A DNA stretch of 64,000 nucleotides from Tepidimonas alkaliphilus (GTDB lineage: Bacteria; Pseudomonadota; Gammaproteobacteria; Burkholderiales; Burkholderiaceae_C): assembly GCF_007556595.1 (NCBI RefSeq), contig NZ_VJNB01000005.1:62001-126000 (forward strand), read 5' to 3'. Below the pieces are notes generated by a model that worked only from the letters and a program-made list of their open reading frames with translations, ran no database searches and was not told where the DNA came from. The position numbers and the translations under genes were made by a program. This document shows positions 1,078-14,611 of the stretch, piece after piece (position 1 is the stretch's first letter; each line of letters begins with the position of its first letter).

Positions 1078-2400
1078 TCAGACCGCCGGCGCCGGCAGCA
1101 CGGTGCCGGTGCAGCGGCCAAAGCCGATGCGCACCGCCCCCGGCGCCTCGCACCAGCCGCTCAGCGTCACCTCGTCGCCGTCCTCGAGGAAGGTGCGCCG
1201 CTCGCCGCCGGGCAGCTCCAGCGGCCGCTGGCCGCCCTCGGTCAGCTCGATCAGCGCGGCGGCCTGCTCGGGCGCCGGGCCGGAGAGCGTGCCGGTGCCG
1301 AGCAGATCGCCCGGCTGCAGGTTGCAGCCGTTGACGGTGTGGTGCGCCACCAGCTGCGCCGCCGTCCAGTAGGCGTGGCGGTAGTTGGTGCGCGCGATCG
1401 TCTGGGCCGGCAGCCCCTGCGCGCGCATGCGCGCGGTGCGCAGCGCCACCGCGAGCTCGATCGCCACCGCGCCGGCGCGGCGGTTGGCCTCGCCGTCCAG
1501 ATACGGCAGCGGCGCCGGGTCGCCGGCGGGCCGCTCCAGCGGCGCGCGAAACGGCGCCAGCGCCTCCCACGTCACCACCCACGGCGAGATCGTGGTGGCG
1601 AAATTTTTGGCCAGAAAGGGCCCGAGCGGCTGATATTCCCACGCCTGGATGTCGCGCGCCGACCAGTCGTTGAGCAGCACGACGCCGAACAGGTGCGCCT
1701 CGGCCTGCGGCAGCGGAATCGGCTCGCCCAGCGCGTTGCCGGGGCCGACGAACAGGCCCAGCTCCAGCTCGATGTCGAGCCGGCGGCTCGGCGCCACGAC
1801 CGGCTCGGCGACATCAGGCAGCTTGATCTGCCCGCACGGGCGGCGAAACGCCTGCGGCGAGACGGCCACGCTGGAGCTGCGGCCATGGTAGCCGATCGGC
1901 ACCCACTTGTAGTTCGGCAGCAGCGGGTTGTCGGGGCGGAACAGCCGGCCGATGTTGGTGGCGTGGTGGATCGAGGTGTAGAAATCGGTGTAGTCGCCGA
2001 TGCGCGCCGGCAGCGTCAGCTCCGCCGCGGCCTGCGGCACCAGACACGCCGCCACGGTGGCCTCGAGCGCACTGCCGCAGCGCAGCGCGCGCGACAGCGC
2101 CAGCCGCAGCGCGCTCCAGTGCGCCGGCCCCAGCGCCATCAGCGCGTTGAGCGTGGGGCCGGCGGCCGCCGCCAGCGCCTCGGCCGCCGCGCCGTCGAAC
2201 GGATGCGCGCGGTGCAGCGCCGCCAGGTCGATGATCTGGTCGCCGATGGCCACGCCGCCGCGCCATGGCTCGGCCGTGCCGGCGCGGCGGAACACCCCGA
2301 ACGGCAGGTTCTGGATCGGAAAGTCGGTGCCCGGCTCGTGGGCCGAGGCGACCCAGCAGCGCAGTGCCGGATCGTGGGTCTCGTTCAGCGTCGGGATCAT
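1078..2400 (-). CDS. fahA: Fumarylacetoacetase
   Basis: Hydrolyses fumarylacetoacetate to fumarate and acetoacetate, the last step of the homogentisate route, in the cytoplasm. The 440-residue length is normal for the family. The N-terminal SH3-like region carries PFGVFRR. The catalytic domain contains YTDFYTSIHHATNIGRLFRP with the metal-ligand Asp, the PIGYHGRSSS loop, a LDIELELGLFVG segment with the two ligand Glu residues, and LNDWSARDIQAWEYQPLGPF. It ends with the typical GTGTLSGP and DEVTLSGWCE segments. It lies downstream of a DUF2783 gene and an FAD hydroxylase on the same strand, 27 bases after the former, so it is probably cotranscribed with them. No homogentisate dioxygenase or maleylacetoacetate isomerase is present nearby. 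Confidence 0.95.
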   Translation of the reverse strand: MIPTLNETHDPALRCWVASAHEPGTDFPIQNLPFGVFRRAGTAEPWRGGVAIGDQIIDLAALHRAHPFDGAAAEALAAAAGPTLNALMALGPAHWSALRLALSRALRCGSALEATVAACLVPQAAAELTLPARIGDYTDFYTSIHHATNIGRLFRPDNPLLPNYKWVPIGYHGRSSSVAVSPQAFRRPCGQIKLPDVAEPVVAPSRRLDIELELGLFVGPGNALGEPIPLPQAEAHLFGVVLLNDWSARDIQAWEYQPLGPFLAKNFATTISPWVVTWEALAPFRAPLERPAGDPAPLPYLDGEANRRAGAVAIELAVALRTARMRAQGLPAQTIARTNYRHAYWTAAQLVAHHTVNGCNLQPGDLLGTGTLSGPAPEQAAALIELTEGGQRPLELPGGERRTFLEDGDEVTLSGWCEAPGAVRIGFGRCTGTVLPAPAV

Positions 2401-2427
2401 GCGGACAGGCCTCCGGCGGGCGGCGGC

Positions 2428-2634
2428 TCAGGGGCGCGCGGCCAGCGAGTTGTCGCGCGCCAGGCGGATCGCCTCGCTCAGGATGGCGCGGTCGCCGACG
2501 TGGTTGGCCAGGATCAGCGCCAGCTTGGCGACGAACATCTCGGCCTGCTCGTCGGTTAGGTCGCGCTGGGCGTCGATGAGCTCCTCGTAGAAGCCGTCGT
2601 GGTCGGGGATGTTGGGGGTGCGGATCAGCGGCAT
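2428..2634 (-). CDS. Small DUF2783-type protein
   Basis: A 68-residue acidic, helical protein starting MPLIRTPNIPDHDGFYEELI. The sequence resembles DUF2783 family proteins, which often accompany FAD-dependent aromatic hydroxylases; their function is not known. There is no signal peptide or membrane segment. It sits between the FAD hydroxylase (21 bases upstream) and fumarylacetoacetase (27 bases downstream) in a tight same-strand operon. An accessory or stabilising role for the hydroxylase is only a guess. The family assignment is from memory of the motif pattern. Confidence 0.75.
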   Translation of the reverse strand: MPLIRTPNIPDHDGFYEELIDAQRDLTDEQAEMFVAKLALILANHVGDRAILSEAIRLARDNSLAARP

Positions 2635-2655
2635 AGCGGCGTGCCTCCGGTCGGT

Positions 2656-4263
2656 TCAGTGCAGGGCCAGCGCGCGCGCCAGCGCCGCCTGCACGGCGGC
2701 GGCGTCGAAGCGGCGCCAGCGCGCGGCGACGTACTGGTCCGGGCGGAACAGGTACACGGTGCCGGGCTGGCCATCGTAGCGCTGCGTCAGCACGCCCAGG
2801 CGGTCGTGCAGGTCGCGTCCGACCTCCAGCACCGTCGCCTCCACGCCGCCGACGCGCACCGGCTGCGCGCCGGCCCCGAAGCTCAGCAGCACGAAGCCGC
2901 GGCCGAGCCGCTCCAGCAGCCAGCCCGGGCGGCCATCCACCTCCACCGGCGCGTCGGCGGCGAACATCCCCGGCGCCATGCGCCCGGCAAAGGTGTCCGC
3001 ATCCGGCGTGTTCAGCGGCGAGCCGACGTACGGCGTCGGGGTGGACAGCCGCCCGCTGTTGACGAGTGGCCGCGCGAACGGCTCGGTGCGCGCCAGCTCC
3101 AGCACCGCGTTGCGCAGCCGCAGCGACGTGCGGCTCTTGGGCGTGATGAAGTCGGTGGAGCGGGTGGAGTTGAGGATGTTGTCGTCCGCGGCCAGCGCCC
3201 GCTCCCAGTGGTAGCTGTCCAGCAGCGCCTCGGGCGCGTGACCCGCCAGCACCGCGGCCAGCTTCCAGCCCAGGTTGTCGGCGTCCTGCACGCCGCTGTT
3301 GGCGCCGCGCGCGCCGAACGGCGAGACCTGATGCGCCGCATCCCCGGCGAAGATCACCCGCCCGTGGCGGAAGCGGTCGATGCGCCGGCAGGCGAACTGG
3401 TACACCGATACCCACTCCAGCTCGAACGGCACGTCCGGCCCCAGCATCGCCTGGATGCGCGGGATGACGCGCTCGGGCTTCTTCTCCTCGTTGGGGTCGG
3501 CGTCCCAGCCGAGCTGGAAGTCGATGCGCCAGACGTTGTCGCACTGCTTGTGCAGCAGCACGCTCTGGCCGCGGTGGAACGGCGGGTCGAACCAGAACCA
3601 ACGCTCGGTCGGGAAGTCCGCCTTCATCACCACGTCGGCGATCAGGAAGCGGTCCTGGAAGAACTGGCCGGTGAACTCCGCCCCGACCATGCGCCGGATG
3701 TCGCTGTGCGCGCCGTCGCAGGCGATCAGCCACTCAGCCTCCATCTTGAAGATGCCGTCGGGGGTCTCCACCGTCAGCACCACGTGGTCAGGCTGCGGCT
3801 CCACCGCCAGCACCTTGTGCTTCCAGCGCAGGTCCACCCGCGGCGAGGCGTCGCAGGCGCGCACCAGCCGCTCCTCCAGGTAGTACTGCTGCAGGTTGAT
3901 CATCGCCGGCATCTTGTGGTGATCCTCCGGCAGCAGGTCGAACTGGTAGACCAGCTCGTCGCGGAAGAACACCTTGCCGACCTTCCACTGCACCCCCTGC
4001 GCGACCAGATCCTCGCCCAGCCCGAGGCGGTCCCAGATCTCCAGCGGGCGCTTGGCGTAACAGACCGCGCGCGAGCCGACGCTGACAGTGTTGTTGTCGT
4101 CCAGGATCACGGTGGGCACACCGCGGAAGGCCAGGTCCAGCGCCTGCGTCATGCCGACCGGCCCGGCGCCGACGACGACCACCGGATGGCGCACGCGCCG
4201 CCCCTCGGCCTGCTCAGGGCTGATGCGATAGGGGTATCGCGGGTAGGTGTAGGTGTGCAACAT
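2656..4263 (-). CDS. FAD-dependent aromatic-ring hydroxylase (MhpA/PheA-like monooxygenase)
   Basis: Predicted flavoprotein monooxygenase that hydroxylates a phenolic acid using NAD(P)H and oxygen. The 535-residue start (MLHTYTYPRYPY) was chosen because the ATG at 4263 follows a GAAGGA-type ribosome site; the frame stays open further upstream without coding character. Motifs: Rossmann GXGXXG as VVGAGPVGMTQALDLA near residue 30, ACDGAHSDIRRMVG (DG motif) near 185, and RVIFAGDAAHQVSPFGARG (GD motif) near 300, followed by the NSGVQDADNLGWKLA helix and a thioredoxin-like C-terminal domain. These features place it with MhpA-like hydroxylases. The substrate is unknown. Company with fumarylacetoacetase suggests it makes a 1,4-dihydroxylated ring such as homogentisate. 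Confidence 0.88.
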   Translation of the reverse strand: MLHTYTYPRYPYRISPEQAEGRRVRHPVVVVGAGPVGMTQALDLAFRGVPTVILDDNNTVSVGSRAVCYAKRPLEIWDRLGLGEDLVAQGVQWKVGKVFFRDELVYQFDLLPEDHHKMPAMINLQQYYLEERLVRACDASPRVDLRWKHKVLAVEPQPDHVVLTVETPDGIFKMEAEWLIACDGAHSDIRRMVGAEFTGQFFQDRFLIADVVMKADFPTERWFWFDPPFHRGQSVLLHKQCDNVWRIDFQLGWDADPNEEKKPERVIPRIQAMLGPDVPFELEWVSVYQFACRRIDRFRHGRVIFAGDAAHQVSPFGARGANSGVQDADNLGWKLAAVLAGHAPEALLDSYHWERALAADDNILNSTRSTDFITPKSRTSLRLRNAVLELARTEPFARPLVNSGRLSTPTPYVGSPLNTPDADTFAGRMAPGMFAADAPVEVDGRPGWLLERLGRGFVLLSFGAGAQPVRVGGVEATVLEVGRDLHDRLGVLTQRYDGQPGTVYLFRPDQYVAARWRRFDAAAVQAALARALALH

Positions 4264-4364
4264 CGCTCGTGTCCTTCGGACGGGGGCCGCGCCGCGGGCA
4301 CGCGGCGCACGGCCACCCCGGCCCGCAGCGGGCCGGGCCTGGCGCGCGCGGCGAGGCCAAGCCT

Positions 4365-4907
4365 TCAGCCGGCGGCGCCGAACTCCTTCTCGTGCATCCA
4401 GGCGGCGTGCTTGGGCGCGCGGCGCGTGCGCGCCCACTCTTCCAACATGTCCCACTTCACGGCGTCGAGCTTGGCATACATCTCGGGCGTGCCGACGTCG
4501 GCGGCCAGCTCGATGCGGTGGCCGTTGGGGTCGAAGAAGTAGATGCTCTTGAAGATCGTGTGGTCGGTGATGCCGACCACCGGGATGCCGGCGGCCTCCA
4601 GCCGCGCCTTGGTCTCCTCCAGCGTGCGCACGCTGTCGACCTTGAAGGCGATGTGCTGCACCCAGTCCGGCGTGTTGGGATCCTTGCCCATCGGCGGCGA
4701 CTTCGGCAGCTCGAAGAACGCCAGCACGTTGCCCTGCCCGGCGTCGAGGAAGACGTGCATGTACGGGTCGGGGGCCTTGGTGGAGGGCACCTGGTCCTCG
4801 GCGATGGCCAGCACGAACTTCATGTTCAGGTGCTTGACGTACCACTCCACCGTCTCCTTGGCGTCGCGGCAGCGGTAGGCGACGTGGTGAATGCGCTCGA
4901 TCTTCAT
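4365..4907 (-). CDS. VOC-family protein, extradiol-dioxygenase-like
   Basis: A 180-residue vicinal-oxygen-chelate protein with two beta-alpha-beta-beta-beta modules. A metal triad typical of type I extradiol dioxygenases and glyoxalases can be read: H8 (in RIHHVAYRC), H85 (in WVQHIAFKV) and E133 (in DPNGHRIELA). The last 35 residues form a charged helical tail. It is the second gene of the operon, after the MBL-fold gene and before the FAD hydroxylase. The order hydroxylase, VOC protein, fumarylacetoacetase would fit a ring-cleavage enzyme acting on the hydroxylated product. That role is inference; a glyoxalase-like or isomerase role is also possible. Confidence 0.82.
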   Translation of the reverse strand: MKIERIHHVAYRCRDAKETVEWYVKHLNMKFVLAIAEDQVPSTKAPDPYMHVFLDAGQGNVLAFFELPKSPPMGKDPNTPDWVQHIAFKVDSVRTLEETKARLEAAGIPVVGITDHTIFKSIYFFDPNGHRIELAADVGTPEMYAKLDAVKWDMLEEWARTRRAPKHAAWMHEKEFGAAG

Positions 4908-4953
4908 CGTGGGTCTCCTCTGCGAGGGTGCGGCGGCGCGGCCCGTCTGGCGT

Positions 4954-5910
4954 TCAGCCTTCCAGCGCCTCCCACATCTGGCGGTCGCGCTCGGCGGTCC
5001 AGATGCGCGGGTCGGGGTAGGCGGTCAGCTCGTCGTAGCAGCGCGTCACGTCAAACGGCATGCAGTGGTCGAAGATCACCCAGCGGCCATACTTGGGTTG
5101 CAGGCGCGCGTAGGTCTCTTTGTAGATGACGCGCAAGTCCTTGCCGGCGCGCACGCCCTCCTCCACCGCGGCGCGCACGTCCTCGATGAAGGCTTTGGTG
5201 CCGGCCAGCGCCTGCTGCACCTGCTCCGGCGTGGTCAGCGCCGCGCCGCGGCCCGGCACGAGCTTTTCGGGCTGAAGCGCCGCGAGGTTGTCCAGCGTCT
5301 GCGGCCAGTCGCGGAAATAGGCATCGCCGGCGTAGGGCGTGGCGTCGAACTCGACCAGGTCACCGCTGAAAAGGATGCGCTCCTGCGGCAGCCAGGCCAC
5401 CGTGTCGCCCTTGGTGTGGCCGCGGCCCAGCTGCAGCAGCTGCACCTCCAGCTTGCCCAGCCAAATCGTCATCTTGCCGGTGAACGTGAGGGTGGGCCAG
5501 GTCAGCCCCGGCGGAATCGACTCCACCGCCCGGAACAGGCGCGGGAAGCGGCCGATCTCGCTGGCCTTGTCCTGCTCGCCGCGCTCGACGATCAGGTCGT
5601 AGGTGTCCTGGCTGGCGATGATGTGCTGCGCGCCATACGCGCTGGCGCCCAGCACGCGCACCGCGTGGTAGTGGCTCAGCACCACGTACTGGATCGGCTT
5701 GTCGGTGACCTCGCGGATGCGGCGGATCACGTCCTGCGCCATCACGGGCGTGGCCTGGGTGTCGATCACCATCACGGCGTTATCGCCAATGATGACGCCG
5801 GTGTTGGGATCGCCCTCGGCGGTGTAGGCGTAGGCGTGGTCGGACAGCTTGGTGAAGCTGACCTGCTTGTCCTGCAGGTCGGCCTGGCTGGCGAAGGCTT
5901 TGGTGCTCAT
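4954..5910 (-). CDS. MBL-fold protein with degenerate metal motif
   Basis: Metallo-beta-lactamase-fold protein, 318 residues from the ATG at 5910; an in-frame ATG at 5940 would give 328, and neither start has a strong ribosome site. The usual HxHxDH motif reads HYHAVR in VVLSHYHAVRVLGAS, so the Asp and last His of site 2 are replaced. The later motifs GRGHTKGDT and LFSGDLVEF are kept, and a further FDHCMPFDV occurs near the C-terminus. The protein is therefore either a single-metal enzyme or has lost hydrolase activity. It is the first gene of the minus-strand aromatic operon, divergent from the IclR gene. A role in thioester or lactone hydrolysis is speculative. Confidence 0.8.
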   Translation of the reverse strand: MSTKAFASQADLQDKQVSFTKLSDHAYAYTAEGDPNTGVIIGDNAVMVIDTQATPVMAQDVIRRIREVTDKPIQYVVLSHYHAVRVLGASAYGAQHIIASQDTYDLIVERGEQDKASEIGRFPRLFRAVESIPPGLTWPTLTFTGKMTIWLGKLEVQLLQLGRGHTKGDTVAWLPQERILFSGDLVEFDATPYAGDAYFRDWPQTLDNLAALQPEKLVPGRGAALTTPEQVQQALAGTKAFIEDVRAAVEEGVRAGKDLRVIYKETYARLQPKYGRWVIFDHCMPFDVTRCYDELTAYPDPRIWTAERDRQMWEALEG

Positions 5911-5956
5911 GGTCCGGTTTTCGTCGGGCGAACGCGGCATGGAGATTCAACCATGC

Positions 5957-6027
5957 CAAACGCATTTGTCTTATGTGGCGCAATGGTAGGCGATCAGGTT
6001 GTACGATGTCAAACGCGTTCGCATAAG
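5957..6027. promoter_or_regulatory. Paired repeats in the MBL-IclR divergent promoter region
   Basis: Two related elements lie between the divergent genes. One starts CAAACGCATTTG at 5957. The other starts CAAACGCGTTCG at 6010 and contains the palindrome AACGCGTT (6012-6019). Each is followed within a few bases by a TTATG or CATAA block. The position fits an operator for the divergent IclR protein, but this is inferred from location and symmetry only. Confidence 0.4.
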
Positions 6028-6077
6028 TGAAAACCCCGAGATCGCCAGCGCGGAGGCAGGCGAGCCGCGCGGCGACA

Positions 6078-6899
6078 ATGATGCGCATGCACACTCTGCC
6101 CCCGGACCACCACGCAACGGACAGCACGGCCGGCGACGACGGCCCGCTGCGCCGCCCCCGCGGCATCCAGAGCATCGAGGTCGGCGGCCAGCTGCTCAAG
6201 GCGCTGGCTCGCGCCGGCCGCGCGCTGCCGCTGAAGGAGTTGGCGCGCGCCGCCGGCATGGGCGCCGCCAAGGCCCACCCCTACTTGGTCAGCTTCGGCA
6301 AGCTCGGACTGGTGGAACAGGATCCGGTCAGCGGCCACTATGGGCTGGGGCCGCTGGCGCTGCAACTCGGCCTGATCGGGCTGCAGCAGGTCGACCCCGT
6401 GCGGCTGGCGGTGGCCGAGCTGCCGGCACTGGCACGCACGCTCGGCTGCACGGTCTCGGCCGCCGTGTGGGGGCCGGTGGGGCCGATCATCGTGCACGTG
6501 GAGCTGGCCCCCACGCCGGTGCACGTGGCGATGCGCCACGGCATGCCGGCCTCGCTGCGCCACACCGGCACTGGCAAGATCTTCGCCGCCTTCGGCGAGC
6601 CGCAGGCAGTGGCCGCGGCGCTGGCGCGCGAGGGCGAGGCCGAGGCGCTGCGCGATCCGGCCTTCGCCGAGGAGCTGGCAGCGATCCGCCGCGAGGGCCT
6701 GAGCCGCGTACGCGATGAACTGCTGCCGGGCATCAGCGCGCTGGCGGTGCCGGTGTTCGATGGCTTCGGGCGCGTGGTGCTGGCGCTGGCCGCCATCGCC
6801 CCCAGCGCGCTGCTGGATCTGCGTGCCGAAGGCGCCCAGGCGCAGGCCCTCATCGCCGCCGGAAGGCGGCTGACGCAACGCTTGGGCACGGGCGGCTGA
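6078..6899 (+). CDS. IclR-family transcriptional regulator
   Basis: Predicted ligand-responsive repressor or activator of the divergent aromatic operon. About 273 residues from the ATG at 6078; ATGs at 6081 and 6087 are equally possible and none has a clear ribosome site. The N-terminal winged helix (GIQSIEVGGQLLKALA, LPLKELARAAGMGAAKAHPYLVSF) is standard IclR. The effector domain follows, with GTGKIFAAFG near residue 170 and the ISALAVPVFDGFGRVVLALA segment near the end. Its 5' end faces the MBL gene across about 170 bases containing repeats. The effector is probably an aromatic intermediate, by inference from context. Confidence 0.9.
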   Translation: MMRMHTLPPDHHATDSTAGDDGPLRRPRGIQSIEVGGQLLKALARAGRALPLKELARAAGMGAAKAHPYLVSFGKLGLVEQDPVSGHYGLGPLALQLGLIGLQQVDPVRLAVAELPALARTLGCTVSAAVWGPVGPIIVHVELAPTPVHVAMRHGMPASLRHTGTGKIFAAFGEPQAVAAALAREGEAEALRDPAFAEELAAIRREGLSRVRDELLPGISALAVPVFDGFGRVVLALAAIAPSALLDLRAEGAQAQALIAAGRRLTQRLGTGG

Positions 6900-7583: not shown

Positions 7584-8372
7584 ATGACCACCGCCCCTTC
7601 CCTCGACGAGCTGGACTGCACCTTGGACGGCCCCGTCGCGATCGTGCGGCTGCGCCGGCCGGCCAAGCGCAACGCGCTCTCCGACGGCCTGATCCTGGCC
7701 CTGCGGCAGACCTTCGACCAGCTGCCTGCCGAGGCGCGCGCGGCCGTGATCTGCGGCGAAGGCGAGCATTTCTGCGCCGGGCTGGATCTGGCGGAGCTGC
7801 GCGAGCGCGACGCGGTGGAGGGCCTGCACCACTCGCGGCTGTGGCACGCCGCCTTCGACGCCATCGAGCGTGGACGCGTGCCGGTGGTGGCGGCGCTGCA
7901 CGGTGCGGTGGTCGGCGGCGGGCTGGAGCTGGCCAGCGCCTGCCACGTGCGCGTGGCCGACGACAGCGCCTACTTCGCGCTGCCGGAGGGCACGCGCGGC
8001 ATCTTCGTTGGCGGCAGCGGTGCGGTGCGCATCCCGCGCCTGATCGGCGTGGCGCGCATGATGGACATGATGCTGACCGGCCGCGTGCTCGGCGCCGACG
8101 AGGCCGAGCGCGCCGGGCTGGTGCAGTACCGCGTGCCGGCCGGCCAGGCGCTGGCCAAGGCACTGGAGCTGGCGCGGCGCATCGCCGCCAACGCGCCGAT
8201 GACCAACTACGCGCTGATGCACGCGCTGCCGCGCATCGCCGAGCAGGCCAGCGACCACGGGCTGTTCACCGAGGCGCTGATCTCCGCGATCGCCCAGGCC
8301 GCCCCCGAGGCCAAGGCGCGCCTGCGCGACTTTCTGGAGGGGCGCGCCGCCAAGGTGCGCCCGGGCGGCTGA
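7584..8372 (+). CDS. Enoyl-CoA hydratase/isomerase family protein
   Basis: Crotonase-fold enzyme, 262 residues, expected to hydrate the side-chain double bond of an aryl-acrylyl-CoA. The N-terminus reads VAIVRLRRPAKRNALSDGL. The first oxyanion-hole segment is GEGEHFCAGLDLAELRER near residue 60, and the second is GAVVGGGLELASACHVRVAD near 105. The catalytic region contains LPEGTRGIFVGGSGAVRIPRLIG, where an acidic residue sits in the position used by hydratases. It starts at the ATG at 7584 with no visible ribosome site, so translation may be weak or leaderless. It is 56 bases ahead of the CoA ligase and probably the first gene of the operon. A hydratase-lyase (vanillin-forming) activity cannot be excluded. 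Confidence 0.88.
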   Translation: MTTAPSLDELDCTLDGPVAIVRLRRPAKRNALSDGLILALRQTFDQLPAEARAAVICGEGEHFCAGLDLAELRERDAVEGLHHSRLWHAAFDAIERGRVPVVAALHGAVVGGGLELASACHVRVADDSAYFALPEGTRGIFVGGSGAVRIPRLIGVARMMDMMLTGRVLGADEAERAGLVQYRVPAGQALAKALELARRIAANAPMTNYALMHALPRIAEQASDHGLFTEALISAIAQAAPEAKARLRDFLEGRAAKVRPGG

Positions 8373-8428
8373 CCCAGGCGGGCACCGCCCGCCCCTCATC
8401 TGACGAGAACCACGAGGGCCGAGGAGAC

Positions 8429-10363
8429 ATGAATCGCGAACCGCACCTTCCCCCCGAGGTGGCGCAGGCGCCGTTTCGCCCGCTGCGCTTCGGCGTGACA
8501 CGCGTGCACGTGCGTGACGGCCCCGCCGGGGTGCACTACCTGCGCGCCGAGCAGGCCTTGCAACCCTACCCGGCGCGCATGACCGACCGGCTGCGCCATT
8601 GGGCGCACGAGCGTGGGCAGCGCACGCTGTTCGCGCGCCGGCGCCGCCACGTTGCGGCCGACGGCACGGTGACGCTCACCGACTGGGAACACGTCACCTG
8701 GGCCCAGGCCTGGGCCACGGCGCGCGCGCTGGCGCAGGCGCTGCTGCAGCGCGATCTGTCGGCCGAACGCCCGGTACTGATCCTGAGCGAGAACAGCCTG
8801 GAGCATGCGCTGCTGGCGCTGGGCTGCATGGTGGCCGGCGTGCCGTGGGCGCCGGTCTCGCCCGCCTACTCGCTGCTGAGCAGCGATTTCGCCAAGCTGC
8901 GCCACGTGTGGGTGACGCTGACGCCGGGCCTGGTGTTCGCGCAGGATGCGCGCTACGCGCGCGCCATCGGGGCGGTGGTGCCGCCCCAGGTGGAGGTGGT
9001 GCTGGCCGAGGGCGCCCTGCCCGACCGCGCGGTGACGCCGTACGCGGCGCTGGCGGCCACCGAGCCGACCGCGGCGGTGGAGGCCGCCATCGAGGCCACC
9101 GGGCCGGACACCATCGTCAAGTTTCTCTTCACCAGCGGCTCGACCAAGGCGCCCAAGGCCGTCATCAACACGCACCGCATGTGGTGCGCCAACCAGCAGC
9201 AGATGACGCAGTCGATGCCGGTGCTGGCCGAGGAGGATCTGGTGCTGGTCGACTGGCTGCCGTGGAACCACACCTTCGGCGGCAACCACAACGTCGGCAT
9301 GGTGCTCTACCACGGCGGCACGCTCTACCTCGACGACGGCAAGCCCACCCCGGCGCTGATCGGCGAGACGCTGCGCAACCTGCGCGAGATCGCGCCGACC
9401 GTGTATTTCAACGTGCCGGTGGGCTTCGAGGCGATCGCGCAGGCGATGCAGACCGACGCGGCGCTGCGGCGCACGCTGCTGTCGCGCGTGCGCATGTTCT
9501 TCTACGCCGGCGCGTCGCTGGCCCAGCCGGTATGGGACAGCCTCTACGCCAGCGCGGTGCGCGAGCTCGGCTTGCGCATCCCGATGACCTCGGGCCTGGG
9601 CATGACCGAGACCGCGCCGTTTGCGCTGTTCGTCACCAGCCCCGAGGTGCGCGCCGGCGACCTGGGCCTGCCGACGCCGGGGCTGGAGATCAAGCTGGTC
9701 GACGTCGACGGCAAGACCGAGGTGCGCTACCGCGGCCCCAACGTCACGCCCGGCTACTGGCGCAACCCCGAGGAGACCGCCGCCGCCTTCGACGAGGAAG
9801 GCTTCTTCCGCTCGGGCGACGCGGTGCGCTGGATCGACGAGACCGACGTGCACCGCGGCCTGCGCTTCGACGGCCGCATCGCCGAGGACTTCAAGCTCGC
9901 CACCGGCACCTTCGTCAGCGTCGGCCCGTTGCGCGCACGCCTGATCGCGGCCGGCGCGCCCTACGTGCAGGACGCGGTGATCACGGGTCTGAACCGCCAT
10001 GAGGTCGGCGCCCTGGTCTTCCCGACGCCGCGCGTGCGCGAGCTGTGCCCGCTGCCGCCCGAGGCCTCGCTGCACGAGGTGGTGGAGCATCCGGCGGTGC
10101 TGGCGCACTTCCAGCGCGTAGTCGACGAGCTAGCGCGGCAGGCCACCGGCAGCGCCAACCGCATCGCCCGGCTGGTGCTGCTGGCCGACCCGCCGAGCCT
10201 CGACCGTGGCGAGATCACCGACAAGGGCTCGATCAACCAGCGCGCGGTGCTCACGCACCGGGCCGACACGGTGGACAAACTCTACGAGGATGCGCTGCAC
10301 CCCATCGTCAAGCCCACGGTCCAGCCCCCGACCGACACCCTTTCCACGAGGACCTTGCCATGA
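8429..10363 (+). CDS. fcs: Feruloyl-CoA synthase (hydroxycinnamate-CoA ligase)
   Basis: Adenylate-forming ligase that activates ferulate, p-coumarate or caffeate with ATP and CoA. 644 residues, the longer feruloyl-CoA synthase type. The ATG at 8429 follows GAGGAGAC. The P-loop FLFTSGSTKAPKAVINTHRM near residue 232 is characteristic of this subfamily, followed by LPWNHTFGGNHN, MTSGLGMTETAPF and the DIT-like segment FRSGDAVRWID. The C-terminal LARQATGSANRIARLVLL and the final ITDKGSINQRAVL lysine region are in place. The stop overlaps the start of the thiolase gene (ATGA). With the neighbouring hydratase, dehydrogenase, thiolase and thioesterase it fits a CoA-dependent beta-oxidation route for phenylpropanoids. 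Confidence 0.92.
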   Translation: MNREPHLPPEVAQAPFRPLRFGVTRVHVRDGPAGVHYLRAEQALQPYPARMTDRLRHWAHERGQRTLFARRRRHVAADGTVTLTDWEHVTWAQAWATARALAQALLQRDLSAERPVLILSENSLEHALLALGCMVAGVPWAPVSPAYSLLSSDFAKLRHVWVTLTPGLVFAQDARYARAIGAVVPPQVEVVLAEGALPDRAVTPYAALAATEPTAAVEAAIEATGPDTIVKFLFTSGSTKAPKAVINTHRMWCANQQQMTQSMPVLAEEDLVLVDWLPWNHTFGGNHNVGMVLYHGGTLYLDDGKPTPALIGETLRNLREIAPTVYFNVPVGFEAIAQAMQTDAALRRTLLSRVRMFFYAGASLAQPVWDSLYASAVRELGLRIPMTSGLGMTETAPFALFVTSPEVRAGDLGLPTPGLEIKLVDVDGKTEVRYRGPNVTPGYWRNPEETAAAFDEEGFFRSGDAVRWIDETDVHRGLRFDGRIAEDFKLATGTFVSVGPLRARLIAAGAPYVQDAVITGLNRHEVGALVFPTPRVRELCPLPPEASLHEVVEHPAVLAHFQRVVDELARQATGSANRIARLVLLADPPSLDRGEITDKGSINQRAVLTHRADTVDKLYEDALHPIVKPTVQPPTDTLSTRTLP

Positions 10364-11643
10364 CCGACCCCCTGCGCCAGCCGCGCGGCCTGTTCAACCG
10401 GTTCGAAGACTGCTGGATCCTGGACGGCGCGCGCACGCCGATGGTGGACTACTGCGGTGCCTTCGGTGCGATCTCCCCCACCGACCTGGGCATCCACGCC
10501 GCGCGCGCGGCGCTGCGCCGCGCCGGCGTCGCGCCGGAGGCCGTCGGCGCCGTGCTGGCCGGCAACATGGCCCCCGGCGACAGCTTCCAGTACATGCTGC
10601 CGCGCCACGTCGGCCTGTACGCCGGCGTGCCGATCGACGTGCCGGCGCTGATGGTGCAGCGCATCTGCGGCACCGGCTTCGAGCTGTTCCGCCAGGCCGG
10701 GCTGCATCTGCGCGACGGCGTCGAGGTGGCGCTGGTGACGGGCACCGAGAGCATGACGCGCAACCCCATCGCCGCTTTCGAGCACCGCACCGGCTTCAAG
10801 CTCGGGGCGCCGGTCCGGTTCGAGGACTTCATGTGGGAGGCGCTGAAGGACCCGGCCGCCGGCGTCGACATGATCGGCACCGCCGAGAACCTGGCGCGCC
10901 GCTACGGCATCACCCGCGCCGAGGTGGACGCCTGGGCGGCGCGTTCGTTCGAGCGGGCGCTGGCGGCGCAGGCCAGTGGCTTTCTGGCCGGCGAGATCGA
11001 GCCCGTCACCCCCACCACCTTCGAGCGCGAGGGCTACGCGCCGCGCGCGCTGCGCCTGCCGCCGAAGGTGGAGCGCGTGGAGGCCGACACCCACCCGCGC
11101 CCCTCGCCGCCGGAGGCGCTGGCGCGCCTGCGCCCGGTGCACGCCGGGGGCGTGCAGACGGCCGGCAACAGCTCGGCGCTGGTGGATGGGGCCGCGGCCG
11201 CGGTCGTGGCGGGCGGCGCGTTCGCGCGCGACTGGCGCGCGCGCACCGGACGCTCGCCGCTGGCGCGCGTGGTGGCCGCGGCGGTGGTCGGCGTGCCGCC
11301 GGAGATCATGGGCATCGGCCCGGCGCCGGCGATCCGCCTGCTGCTGCAGCGCGCGGGGCTGACGCTGGAGGCCATCGACCGCTTCGAGATCAACGAGGCG
11401 CAGGGCGCGCAGGTGCTGGCGGTGGTGCGCGAACTGGGGCTGGACGAGGCGCGCCTGAACGTGCATGGCGGGGCCATTGCACTGGGGCATCCGCTGGCGG
11501 CCACCGGCGTGCGGCTGACGCTGACCTGCGCGCGCGCGCTGCGCGCCTGCGGCGGGCGCTGGGGCGTGGCCTCGGCCTGCATCGGCGGCGGTCAGGGCAT
11601 CGCGCTGCTGCTGGAAAACCCCGACGCCGAGACCGCCGTCTGA
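10360..11643 (+). CDS. Thiolase family protein (acetyl-CoA acetyltransferase-like)
   Basis: Cleaves a 3-ketoacyl-CoA with CoA; here probably an aryl-beta-ketopropionyl-CoA giving an aroyl-CoA and acetyl-CoA. 427 residues, starting at the ATG overlapping the ligase stop. The nucleophilic cysteine is C103 in MVQRICGTGFELF. The catalytic base region is GGAIALGHPLAATG (H377) and the second cysteine is C407 in SACIGGGQG. The oxyanion NEAF block reads NEAQ (EINEAQGAQVLA), a variation from biosynthetic thiolases that may reflect the bulky aryl substrate. Translational coupling with the ligase supports a shared pathway. The exact substrate is inferred. Confidence 0.9.
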   Translation: MTDPLRQPRGLFNRFEDCWILDGARTPMVDYCGAFGAISPTDLGIHAARAALRRAGVAPEAVGAVLAGNMAPGDSFQYMLPRHVGLYAGVPIDVPALMVQRICGTGFELFRQAGLHLRDGVEVALVTGTESMTRNPIAAFEHRTGFKLGAPVRFEDFMWEALKDPAAGVDMIGTAENLARRYGITRAEVDAWAARSFERALAAQASGFLAGEIEPVTPTTFEREGYAPRALRLPPKVERVEADTHPRPSPPEALARLRPVHAGGVQTAGNSSALVDGAAAAVVAGGAFARDWRARTGRSPLARVVAAAVVGVPPEIMGIGPAPAIRLLLQRAGLTLEAIDRFEINEAQGAQVLAVVRELGLDEARLNVHGGAIALGHPLAATGVRLTLTCARALRACGGRWGVASACIGGGQGIALLLENPDAETAV

Positions 11644-11699
11644 TCCACAACCCCTACCCCAACACCGGGCCACTTCCCGAGGCCCGCAAGGAGACCCCG

Positions 11700-12485
11700 A
11701 TGCAGATCAAAGGACAAACCGCCCTGGTCACCGGCGCCGGCTCCGGCCTCGGCGAAGCCACGGCGCGCGAGCTGGCCACGCGTGGCGCACGCGTGGCCGT
11801 CATCGACCTCAACGGCGAGGCCGCCGCGCGCGTCGCCGCCGACTTGAACGCCAGGCATGGCGCCGGCACGGCGCTGGCGCTGGCTGCCGACGTGGCCAGC
11901 GCCGACGGCCTGCGCGACGCCTTTGCCCAGGCCGCCGCCGCGCTCGGCCCGGCGCGCATCCTGATGCACGTGGCCGGCATCGGCACCGCGCGGCGCATCG
12001 TCGGCAAGGACGGCCAGCCCGCACCGCTGGAGGACTTCGAGCGCGTCGTGCGCGTCAACCTGATCGGCACCTACAACGCCGCGCGCCTGTTCGCCGCCGC
12101 CTGCGCCGCCCTGCCCCCGCTGGAGGGTGGCGAGCGTGGCGTGATGGTGTTCACCGCCTCCGTGGCGGCCTTCGACGGCCAGGTCGGCCAGCAGGCCTAC
12201 AGTGCCTCCAAGGGCGGCGTGGTCGGCATGACGCTGCCCATGGCGCGCGACCTGGCGCAGCATGGGATCCGGGTCTGCACCATCGCGCCCGGGCTGTTCG
12301 ACACGCCGCTGATGCGCACCCTGCCCGAGGCGGTGCAGCAGTCGCTGGCGGCCAGCATCCCGTTTCCGTCCCGGCTGGGCCGGCCACAGGAGTTTGCCGA
12401 TCTAGCCTGCCACATCGTCACCAACGGCCACCTCAACGGCGAGGTGGTCCGCCTGGACGGGGCGCTGCGCCTGCCCCCGCGCTGA
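11700..12485 (+). CDS. SDR-family 3-hydroxyacyl-CoA dehydrogenase
   Basis: Short-chain dehydrogenase of 261 residues resembling type II (HSD10-like) 3-hydroxyacyl-CoA dehydrogenases. It should oxidise the 3-hydroxy-aryl-propionyl-CoA made by the hydratase, using NAD+. Motifs: TGXXXGXG as [13 protein letters not shown] near residue 12; Asp after beta-2 (VAVIDLNGE), which favours NAD+; HVAGIG near 90; catalytic Ser in [23 protein letters not shown] with Tyr and Lys as YSASK near 165; and [13 protein letters not shown]. The ATG at 11700 follows AAGGAGACCCCG. It sits between thiolase and thioesterase in the same operon. Confidence 0.92.
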
Positions 12486-12501
12486 TCCCGACGGAAGCCC
12501 C

Positions 12502-12924
12502 ATGAGCAAGACCACGGTTTACGAGGTGGAGGTGATGTTCGGCGACTGCGATCCGGCCGGCATCGTCTTTTTTCCCAACTTCAGCAAGTGGATGGATGCG
12601 GCGTCGCTGCACTTCTTCGTGCAGTGCGGCGTGCCGCCCTGGCGCGAGCTGGTCAAGACGCGCGGCATCATCGGCACGCCGCTGCTGGAGATCCACACCC
12701 GCTTCCTCAAGCCCGCCACCTACGGCGAGCGCCTACAGGTGCACACGCGGGTGGAGGAATGGCGCGAGAAGGTCTTCATCCAGCATCACGTGGTGCGCCG
12801 CGGCGACGACGTACTGTGCGAGGGACGCGAGACGCGTGCCTTCTGCATCCGCCACCCGGACGACCCGGACCGCATCAAAGCGATCCCGATCCCCGCGGAC
12901 ATCCGCGCGCTGTGCGGAGGTTGA
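12502..12924 (+). CDS. 4-hydroxybenzoyl-CoA thioesterase-family protein
   Basis: Hot-dog fold acyl-CoA thioesterase, 140 residues. It is likely to release the free hydroxybenzoate or vanillate from the aroyl-CoA produced by the thiolase. The signature VMFGDCDPAGIVFFPNFSKWMDAAS near residue 12 contains the catalytic Asp in the DPAGIVFFPNF context used by 4HBT enzymes, followed by GTPLLEIHTRFLKPATYGE, the strand that lines the CoA site. It is encoded 16 bases after the dehydrogenase stop and 4 bases before the acyl-CoA dehydrogenase start, so it is cotranscribed. Substrate preference is inferred from context. Confidence 0.9.
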   Translation: MSKTTVYEVEVMFGDCDPAGIVFFPNFSKWMDAASLHFFVQCGVPPWRELVKTRGIIGTPLLEIHTRFLKPATYGERLQVHTRVEEWREKVFIQHHVVRRGDDVLCEGRETRAFCIRHPDDPDRIKAIPIPADIRALCGG

Positions 12925-12928
12925 GGCG

Positions 12929-14611
12929 ATGACGCAGCCCTATCGCCCCGACGCGGCGCTGTCCGCGCGCTGGCTGCTGGACGTGCTGGATGCCCCGGCC
13001 ACCTGGCGCGAGCTGCCGGCGCTGGCCGAACACGCCGACGCCGACCTCGCGCGCCAGGTGCTGGAGGAAGCCGCCACCTTCGTGCACGAGGTGGTGGCGC
13101 CGCTGAACCGCAGCGGTGACGAGATCGGTGCCCGCTGGCACGACGGCGCGGTGACGATGCCGCCGGGCTTTCGTGACGCCTACCAGGCGTTCTGGCGCGC
13201 CGGCTGGCCGGCGCTGTCGGCCCCCACAGCGCTGGGCGGCCAGGGCCTGCCGGTGGCGCTGGAGTTCGTGCTGTACGAATGGCTGAGCGCCGCCAACCAC
13301 GGCTGGACCATGGCGCCGGGCCTGCTGCACGGCGCGGTGGAGTGCCTGCGCCACCACGCCGGCCCCGCGCTGCAGGCGCGCTACCTGCCCAGGCTGGTCA
13401 GCGGCGAGTGGCTGGCCACCATGGCGCTGACCGAGCCGCACGCCGGCAGCGACCTGGGCCTGGTGCGCACGCGCGCCACGCCGGCGGGCGACGATGGTTA
13501 CCGGATCGAGGGGACGAAGATCTTCATCTCCGGCGGCGAGCACGACCTGACCGACAACATCGTGCACCTGGTGCTGGCACGGCTGCCCGAGGCCCCGCCG
13601 GGGCCGAAGGGCCTGAGCCTGCTTCTGGTACCGAAATGGCTGCCGGACGGCCGGCGCAACGCCATCGTCTGCGAGCGCATCGAGGTCAAGATGGGCCTGC
13701 ACGCCAGCCCCACCTGCGTGCTGCGCTTCGATGGCGCCGAGGGGTGGCTGGTCGGCGCACCGCACCAGGGGCTTGCGGCGATGTTCGTGATGATGAACGC
13801 GGCGCGGCTGCACGTGGCGCTGCAGGGCATCGGCCTGCTGGACGCCGCATGGCAGAAGGCGCACGCCTACGCGCACGAGCGGCGCCAGATGCGCGCGCCG
13901 CAGCGGCGCGACCCGACGCAGCCGGCCGACCCGATCATCGACCACCCGGCGGTGCGGCGGCTGCTGGACACGCAGCGCGCCTGGATCGACACCGGCCGGC
14001 TGCTGGCCTACCGCACGGCGCTGGCGCTGGACGTGGCCCACCACCACCCGGACGGCGCGCGCCGCCAGGCCGCGCAGCGCTGGTGCGCACTGATCACCCC
14101 AGTGCTGAAGGCCGCGTGGACCGAGCAGGCCTTTCACGGCGCCAGCGACTGCCTGCAGGTCTTCGGCGGCCACGGCTACGTACGCGAGTGGGGCATCGAG
14201 CAGATCGTGCGCGACGCGCGCGTGACGATGATCTACGAGGGCACCAACGAGATCCAGGCGCAGGATCTGCTGCTGCGCAAGACGCTGCCGGATGGCGGCG
14301 CAGCGCTGGCCGCGCTGTTGCGCGGGCTGCAGAACGACGGGCCCGCCGACGCCGCCTGGCACGCCGGCGCGCAGCGGCTGCACGCGCTGCTCGGCCGGCT
14401 GGCGGCGGCCGCCGAAGCGCAGCGAACGGCGTTGCTCCCCGTTGCAGGGGACTTCCTGCGCGCGGTGGCGCTGACGCTGATGGGCTGGGCGCGCGCGCGG
14501 CTGGGTCGGCACGATGCCGCATGGGACAGCGCGGTCGGCGCGGCCTTCGACCGCTGGGTCTGGCCGGAGCAGGCCTGGCGCTGCGAGATGGTCGAGCGCG
14601 CGCTCGGCTAG
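12929..14611 (+). CDS. Acyl-CoA dehydrogenase, long DmdC-like type
   Basis: FAD enzyme introducing an alpha-beta double bond into an acyl-CoA. 560 residues, longer than the 380-residue standard type. The ATG at 12929 follows GGAGG, which overlaps the end of the thioesterase gene. The flavin-binding segment is MALTEPHAGSDLGLVRTRA near residue 168, then IEGTKIFISGGEHDLTDN. The catalytic Glu lies in MIYEGTNEIQAQDLLLRKTL near residue 435. A C-terminal extension (about 100 residues, helical) matches DmdC-like or FadE-type enzymes. It might saturate-desaturate dihydroferulate or phenylpropionate side chains so that they enter the same pathway. The stop codon overlaps the convergent GATase stop as CTAG. 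Confidence 0.9.
   Translation: MTQPYRPDAALSARWLLDVLDAPATWRELPALAEHADADLARQVLEEAATFVHEVVAPLNRSGDEIGARWHDGAVTMPPGFRDAYQAFWRAGWPALSAPTALGGQGLPVALEFVLYEWLSAANHGWTMAPGLLHGAVECLRHHAGPALQARYLPRLVSGEWLATMALTEPHAGSDLGLVRTRATPAGDDGYRIEGTKIFISGGEHDLTDNIVHLVLARLPEAPPGPKGLSLLLVPKWLPDGRRNAIVCERIEVKMGLHASPTCVLRFDGAEGWLVGAPHQGLAAMFVMMNAARLHVALQGIGLLDAAWQKAHAYAHERRQMRAPQRRDPTQPADPIIDHPAVRRLLDTQRAWIDTGRLLAYRTALALDVAHHHPDGARRQAAQRWCALITPVLKAAWTEQAFHGASDCLQVFGGHGYVREWGIEQIVRDARVTMIYEGTNEIQAQDLLLRKTLPDGGAALAALLRGLQNDGPADAAWHAGAQRLHALLGRLAAAAEAQRTALLPVAGDFLRAVALTLMGWARARLGRHDAAWDSAVGAAFDRWVWPEQAWRCEMVERALG

Follow-up and report, generated by a model that had tools for sequence, protein, structure and literature searches.

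A single-domain VOC protein as the probable stand-in for the cupin HmgA in a homogentisate-pathway operon of Tepidimonas alkaliphilus

INTRODUCTION

The 3-hydroxyphenylacetate 6-hydroxylase of Pseudomonas putida U consists of a flavoprotein of 566 amino acids, MhaA, and a coupling protein of 60 amino acids, MhaB, and in Burkholderia xenovorans LB400 the mhaAB pair lies beside hmgABC; in these systems the homogentisate formed is fed towards fumarylacetoacetate hydrolysis, with HmgA as the ring-cleaving enzyme (PMC3053370, in extract). Here we describe a five-gene operon in a stretch of 64,000 nucleotides from Tepidimonas alkaliphilus (GCF_007556595.1, contig NZ_VJNB01000005.1, positions 62,001 to 126,000), hereafter called the window. 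The operon encodes, on the minus strand, a metallo-beta-lactamase-fold (MBL) protein, a VOC protein, an FAD-dependent aromatic hydroxylase, a DUF2783 protein and a fumarylacetoacetase (FahA), and is preceded by a divergent IclR-family gene on the plus strand. It resembles the described systems in its FAD hydroxylase and small coupling protein, and differs from them in having the VOC protein where those use HmgA, in the location of MaiA elsewhere in the genome and in the added MBL gene. We consider it very likely that this is a homogentisate-pathway operon in which the ring is cleaved by a single-domain VOC protein of the type I extradiol fold and not by the cupin HmgA.

Two other groups of enzymes invite comparison. 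The type I extradiol dioxygenases, such as catechol 2,3-dioxygenase and BphC, share the VOC fold and carry a 2-His-1-Glu triad, but have chains of about 290–300 residues compared with 180 for the VOC protein studied here. HmgA (TIGR01015) catalyzes the reaction proposed here for the VOC protein, at the same place in the pathway and in the gene clusters, but belongs to an unrelated family whose model spans 429 positions.

RESULTS AND DISCUSSION

The VOC protein is closely related to a solved protein titled homogentisate dioxygenase

The VOC protein (positions 4365–4907, minus strand; 180 amino acids; PF00903, 73 bits) was found by phmmer to match one solved structure, 9u42_A, far better than any other (E-value 7e-76, 256.9 bits, with the next best solved structure at 6e-7). 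This entry, released on 2025-07-23 under the title 'Crystal Structure of Homogentisate 1,2-Dioxygenase from Acinetobacter in Complex with Zn ion', is a VOC-fold protein of practically the same length (182 amino acids), and 115 of 175 residues (66%) are identical between the two, including H8, H85, H116, Y123, H130 and E133; the entry comes from another organism, was solved with Zn and is compared here by sequence and title. An earlier note on this DNA had pointed to a triad of H8, H85 and E133, and these residues were indeed invariant throughout a 29-sequence alignment of VOC proteins and are shared with 9u42, which suggests that they are the metal ligands. The protein agrees with a 9u42-like dioxygenase in sequence kinship and triad as well as in setting and genome content. 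The Pfam and NCBIfam matches listed for it were otherwise generic or below cut-off. None of the best 25 of its 35 NCBIfam matches was above cut-off, the top one being catechol 2,3-dioxygenase (TIGR03211, 43 bits compared with a cut-off of 320), so that it does not fall among the two-domain type I extradiol dioxygenases, and the HmgA family was absent from the listed matches (Pfam, and the best 25 of 35 for NCBIfam).

No paper on 9u42, on DUF2783 or on a VOC-type homogentisate dioxygenase was found in the open-licence literature with a search in which one term was flawed; a term search for 'homogentis' gave no match in the main text of PMC9007349, and nothing on VOC is found in the extract of PMC10913395.

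Of the steps searched, only the ring-cleaver is missing from the host genome

The T. alkaliphilus genome (2,462,879 bases, 33 contigs, 99.99% complete) gave no match to HmgA with either PF04209 or TIGR01015 (0 at E ≤ 0.001). It does encode HPPD at C31:90262-91299 (375 bits), followed by phenylalanine 4-monooxygenase (PhhA, within L121:5609-6637; 341 bits, cut-off 265), and MaiA at C23:185507-186172 (252 bits, cut-off 171). FahA of the operon (positions 1078–2400, minus strand; 440 amino acids) is the sole TIGR01266 match in the genome and, with 530 bits compared with a cut-off of 375, belongs to the fumarylacetoacetases. Among the steps of phenylalanine and tyrosine degradation that were searched, namely PhhA, HPPD, HmgA, MaiA and FahA, the ring-cleaver is the only one missing. 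The earlier note had remarked on the lack of HmgA and MaiA and had counted the presence of both genes elsewhere in the genome as evidence against a VOC dioxygenase; both are absent from the operon, and hmgA from the genome as well, whereas maiA turned up at the site given above. The substrate, which the note had left as unknown, is now best taken as homogentisate. It would be formed from 3-hydroxyphenylacetate, O2 and NAD(P)H by the FAD hydroxylase and the DUF2783 protein, acting as an enzyme of MhaAB type, and would also arise from phenylalanine and tyrosine through PhhA, transamination and HPPD. The VOC protein, with an Fe(II) presumably held by H8, H85 and E133, would then convert homogentisate and O2 to maleylacetoacetate, which MaiA would isomerize to fumarylacetoacetate, and this would finally be split by FahA to fumarate and acetoacetate.

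VOC and HmgA tend to replace each other across genomes

A single set of 250 genomes of the order was screened for DUF2783, HmgA, VOC, FahA, MaiA and HPPD. VOC orthologues, with an identity of 69% or more, were found in 31 genomes; HmgA was counted in 40, of which 38 were above cut-off and two (G211 and G052) held partial matches below cut-off, and another 16 genomes carried only an HmgA-like protein with 66–95 bits to TIGR01015. All of the 31 genomes with a VOC orthologue also encode HPPD or DUF2783. Among the 80 genomes having either of these two markers, 44 contained only HmgA or an HmgA-like protein, 23 only VOC, 8 both, and 5 a VOC paralogue. HPPD matches occurred in 92 genomes and were above cut-off in 65 of them; for these 65 the figures were 34 with HmgA or HmgA-like only, 20 with VOC only, 6 with both and 5 with neither (Fisher p 2e-7, ignoring kinship), and each of the latter five carried a VOC paralogue of 43–47% identity. 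A search of 150 genomes of the phylum added 44 HPPD-encoding genomes, divided into 33, 6, 4 and 1, respectively, with an HmgA fragment in G396 (30 bits, one stop) not counted as HmgA-like; the Fisher p of 2e-4 again ignores kinship and should be taken as a guide only. Together with the kinship to 9u42 and the position of the VOC gene in tyrosine clusters, as described below, this complementarity supports the suggestion of the earlier note that the VOC protein replaces the homogentisate dioxygenase.

Long FahA was found in 10 of the 23 VOC-only genomes, and its place is taken by a member of a second FAH family (PF18288) in L067, if not in other VOC clusters as well. In a set of 30 VOC-bearing genomes, made up of that of T. 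alkaliphilus and those of 29 of 80 collected VOC loci, HmgA was absent from 18, above cut-off in 11 and in two pieces in one. The latter is Polaromonas sp. P2-4 (L068; G272:C1:651510-652773), in which the two pieces of the hmgA match lie in different frames and VOC is also present; the split gene may be decayed or reflect a sequencing fault.

VOC occupies the gene place of HmgA

We also counted neighbours within 5 kb, using 43 of 48 DUF2783 matches (the 5 weakest, below 30 bits, being left out) and scoring contig ends as 'none'. Of the DUF2783 genes, 12 had VOC nearby, 11 had hmgA, 6 an HmgA-like gene and 3 a VOC paralogue, and the other 11 had none of these; near 65 HPPD genes the numbers were 10 for hmgA, 10 for HmgA-like, 9 for VOC and 36 for none, and no DUF2783 or HPPD gene counted had two of them. 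One genome has the cluster HPPD-VOC-FahA-MaiA (G058) and another FAH-HPPD-VOC-MaiA (G061, FAH by resemblance), to be compared with HPPD-HmgA-FahA in G023. No clustered VOC gene was assigned to L012, L038 or L071 in the locus clustering. The nearest of the 80 VOC loci was that of Tepidimonas sediminis, with a 99% identical VOC protein and the same gene order.

A tree was made of 42 FAD hydroxylases, coming from 29 of 30 fetched DUF2783 loci (L101 had no FAD entry), 12 of the 80 VOC loci picked by hand, and the window. Leaving out those labelled 'both' or 'none', the neighbour switched at least twice between VOC and hmgA or HmgA-like, and therefore the same kind of hydroxylase appears to be served by different cleavers that were exchanged more than once on the tree. 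A count of five such exchanges was rejected as it mixed in the 'both' and 'none' entries; L109 and L110 are labelled 'none' despite a VOC paralogue nearby.

These gene contexts also bear on an alternative in which the substrate of the VOC protein is not homogentisate itself but a more highly hydroxylated ring, such as a trihydroxyphenylacetate that the FAD hydroxylase would form from homogentisate. The hydroxylase does adjoin VOC in the operon and three clusters hold both HmgA and VOC, but all nine VOC genes within 5 kb of HPPD, the product of which is homogentisate, lie without DUF2783 within 5 kb; the FAD/DUF2783 pair is also found beside hmgA (11 of the 43 DUF2783 loci), and a true FahA follows in the operon. 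We hence regard this alternative as very unlikely. Hardly any weight is left for another possibility, in which a gentisate-type cupin at C31:104242-105258 opens the ring and VOC has some other task. Such a cupin is present, about 13 kb from HPPD, but it is flanked on one side by 3-hydroxybenzoate 6-monooxygenase (697 bits compared with a cut-off of 459) and on the other by an FAH-family hydrolase, which with 126 bits stays below its cut-off of 201. The trio (C31:102923-106069, or L127:6924-10070) reads as a separate, self-contained gentisate route, and ring cleavage by the cupin would leave the complementarity of VOC and HmgA unexplained. With this separate cluster present, gentisate was also rejected as the substrate of the operon, and a flavonoid-type (fde) cluster had been dropped when HmgA and HPPD appeared as neighbours. 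Finally, as glyoxalase-fold enzymes include isomerases and the operon has no MaiA, VOC might have replaced the latter while another protein cleaves the ring, a notion we rejected because MaiA was above cut-off in T. alkaliphilus itself and in all 23 VOC-only genomes, where it is HmgA that is missing, and moreover lies about 3 kb or less from VOC in G058, G061, G105, G112, G151 and G188, while the title of 9u42 says dioxygenase.

Weighing the proposed function

We accordingly judge the VOC protein, from its sequence and setting, to be very probably a homogentisate 1,2-dioxygenase that takes over the role of HmgA, even though several findings weigh against this view. Its support comes from sequence, genome content and gene place and not from fold or assay, and that of the hydroxylase assignment from the description of MhaA and MhaB of P. 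putida U (sizes and layout) and not from their sequences. The chain of 9u42 is labelled 'Glyoxalase' and was solved with Zn, and the name homogentisate dioxygenase is that of its title. The predicted VOC model was only fair (pLDDT 75.6, pTM 0.67) and superposed poorly on 9u42 (TM 0.42, root-mean-square deviation (rmsd) 16.6), perhaps with the two halves of the protein arranged differently in the model. As to distribution, VOC and HmgA are not strictly exclusive, with HmgA also found in 8 of the 31 VOC genomes of the order, and VOC and full-length HmgA share one cluster in L013, L047 and L062, all of them metagenome assemblies. One HPPD-encoding genome (G401) has no known cleaver, 10 of the 31 VOC genes are near neither DUF2783 nor HPPD, and VOC matches were counted despite stop codons in G052 and G285, the latter being among the six VOC-only genomes of the phylum set. 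Lastly, the host does encode the gentisate-dioxygenase-like cupin near HPPD, although its TIGR02272 score (234 bits) is below the cut-off of 442.

When the single-chain VOC model was compared with solved structures, 9u42 was not among the 50 matches listed, probably because the model does not superpose on it; as to the type I extradiol dioxygenases, the match to 3vb0_A had a VIA-align Z-score of 10.3 with an rmsd of 3.0 over 133 aligned residues.

The FAD hydroxylase, DUF2783 and MBL proteins

The FAD hydroxylase (positions 2656–4263, minus strand; PF01494 and NF006002, the latter with 843 bits as scored for a 525-amino acid form) has 535 amino acids when started at the ATG at 4263, which is preceded by GAAGGA. 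It is followed by the DUF2783 protein (positions 2428–2634, minus strand; 68 amino acids; PF10932, 89 bits, cut-off 25), giving the layout of a hydroxylase with a small coupling protein as in MhaAB. Among 30 fetched DUF2783 loci, L101 is the only one in which DUF2783 has no FAD hydroxylase beside it (29 of 30 have one), and in nine fetched loci with DUF2783 beside hmgA the neighbouring FAD protein is 55–61% identical to that of the operon. By analogy, the two proteins probably form a 3-hydroxyphenylacetate 6-hydroxylase of MhaAB type, with the FAD protein corresponding to MhaA and DUF2783 to MhaB. A small protein occupies the place of DUF2783 beside a 36–39% identical FAD relative in L033 (2163-2381, 73 amino acids) and L077; the one in L033 had no Pfam match at E ≤ 0.001, and these are possibly diverged coupling proteins.

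The MBL protein (positions 4954–5940, minus strand, with the start at 5940 or 5910; PF00753, 48 bits) retains H90, H92, H175 and D194, invariant with 17 relatives. Metallo-beta-lactamases with the standard two-metal site usually carry the motif HxHxDH, and the MBL protein, having HYHAVR at 90–95, lacks the D-H of this motif and thus does not belong with them. Its predicted model was good (pLDDT 83.6, pTM 0.86) and aligned closely with a Burkholderia cenocepacia protein, 8d2z_A (Z 42.4, rmsd 1.7, 302 aligned residues) and less closely with chlorothalonil dehalogenase, 6uxu_A (Z 29.6, rmsd 2.7, 277 aligned); the title of 8d2z gives the superfamily only, and no function was found for the MBL protein. 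It has relatives in 25 of the 80 VOC loci, some of which are incomplete, and therefore seems dispensable for the core route. A wider and doubtful proposal is that the homogentisate cleaver is exchangeable within the Pseudomonadota, with HPPD or MhaAB combined with HmgA, HmgA-like or VOC and swapped repeatedly, and that the MBL protein adds an undescribed step in the 3-hydroxyphenylacetate form of the pathway, such as the opening of a homogentisate lactone.

Implications for annotation and pigmentation

A VOC stand-in for HmgA would already be present in the structure databank, while many bacterial genomes carry VOC without a clear name. At present the breakdown of tyrosine and hydroxyphenylacetate seems interrupted at homogentisate in 23 of the 80 genomes of the order that carry HPPD or DUF2783, with another 5 having only the VOC paralogue, and naming VOC would close that gap. 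The protein would also provide a countable case of one enzyme substituting for an unrelated one at the same gene position, and a name for it may shed light on pyomelanin pigment phenotypes in bacteria without HmgA. In pigmented Acinetobacter baumannii, an insertion element was found upstream of fumarylacetoacetase in 2 of 9 sequenced isolates, and the reference used as hmgA has 633 nucleotides, too short for HmgA (PMC11945678, in extract). Judging from the title of 9u42, the Acinetobacter cleaver may be of the VOC type.

Other cleaver candidates and neighbouring genes

The divergent HmgA-like protein, which is about 375 amino acids long and with its 66–95 bits far below the TIGR01015 cut-off, takes the place of HmgA beside HPPD in G120 (L128:2338-3465), where the gene, as judged by eye, also adjoins MaiA and a FAH-like gene, and in G032, G077, G021, G013, G249, G117, G192, G092 and G235; it is a candidate for a third kind of homogentisate cleaver. 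The VOC paralogues of 43–47% identity were seen in G049 (L129:7547-8158), G093, G133, G137, G175 and G204; those of G049, G137 and G175 lie within 5 kb of DUF2783, and that of G049 retains H8, H85 and E133.

Gene calls and family matches confirmed that the five genes, all on the minus strand, lie in the order and at the place that the earlier note had given. They are separated by gaps of 27 bp (FahA/DUF2783), 21 bp (DUF2783/FAD), 101 bp (FAD/VOC) and 46 bp (VOC/MBL), with purine-rich sites preceding the VOC, FAD, DUF2783 and FahA genes. The IclR-family regulator (positions 6027–6899, plus strand; PF09339 and PF01614), which adjoins MBL also in relatives such as L006, L007, L013, L019 and L020, probably controls the operon. 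Beyond it, a single run of plus-strand genes at positions 7584–14611 of the window encodes enoyl-CoA hydratase, acyl-CoA ligase-like (NF009232, slightly below cut-off), thiolase, SDR-like and acyl-CoA-dehydrogenase-like proteins, and is a cluster for CoA side-chain shortening adjoining the operon.

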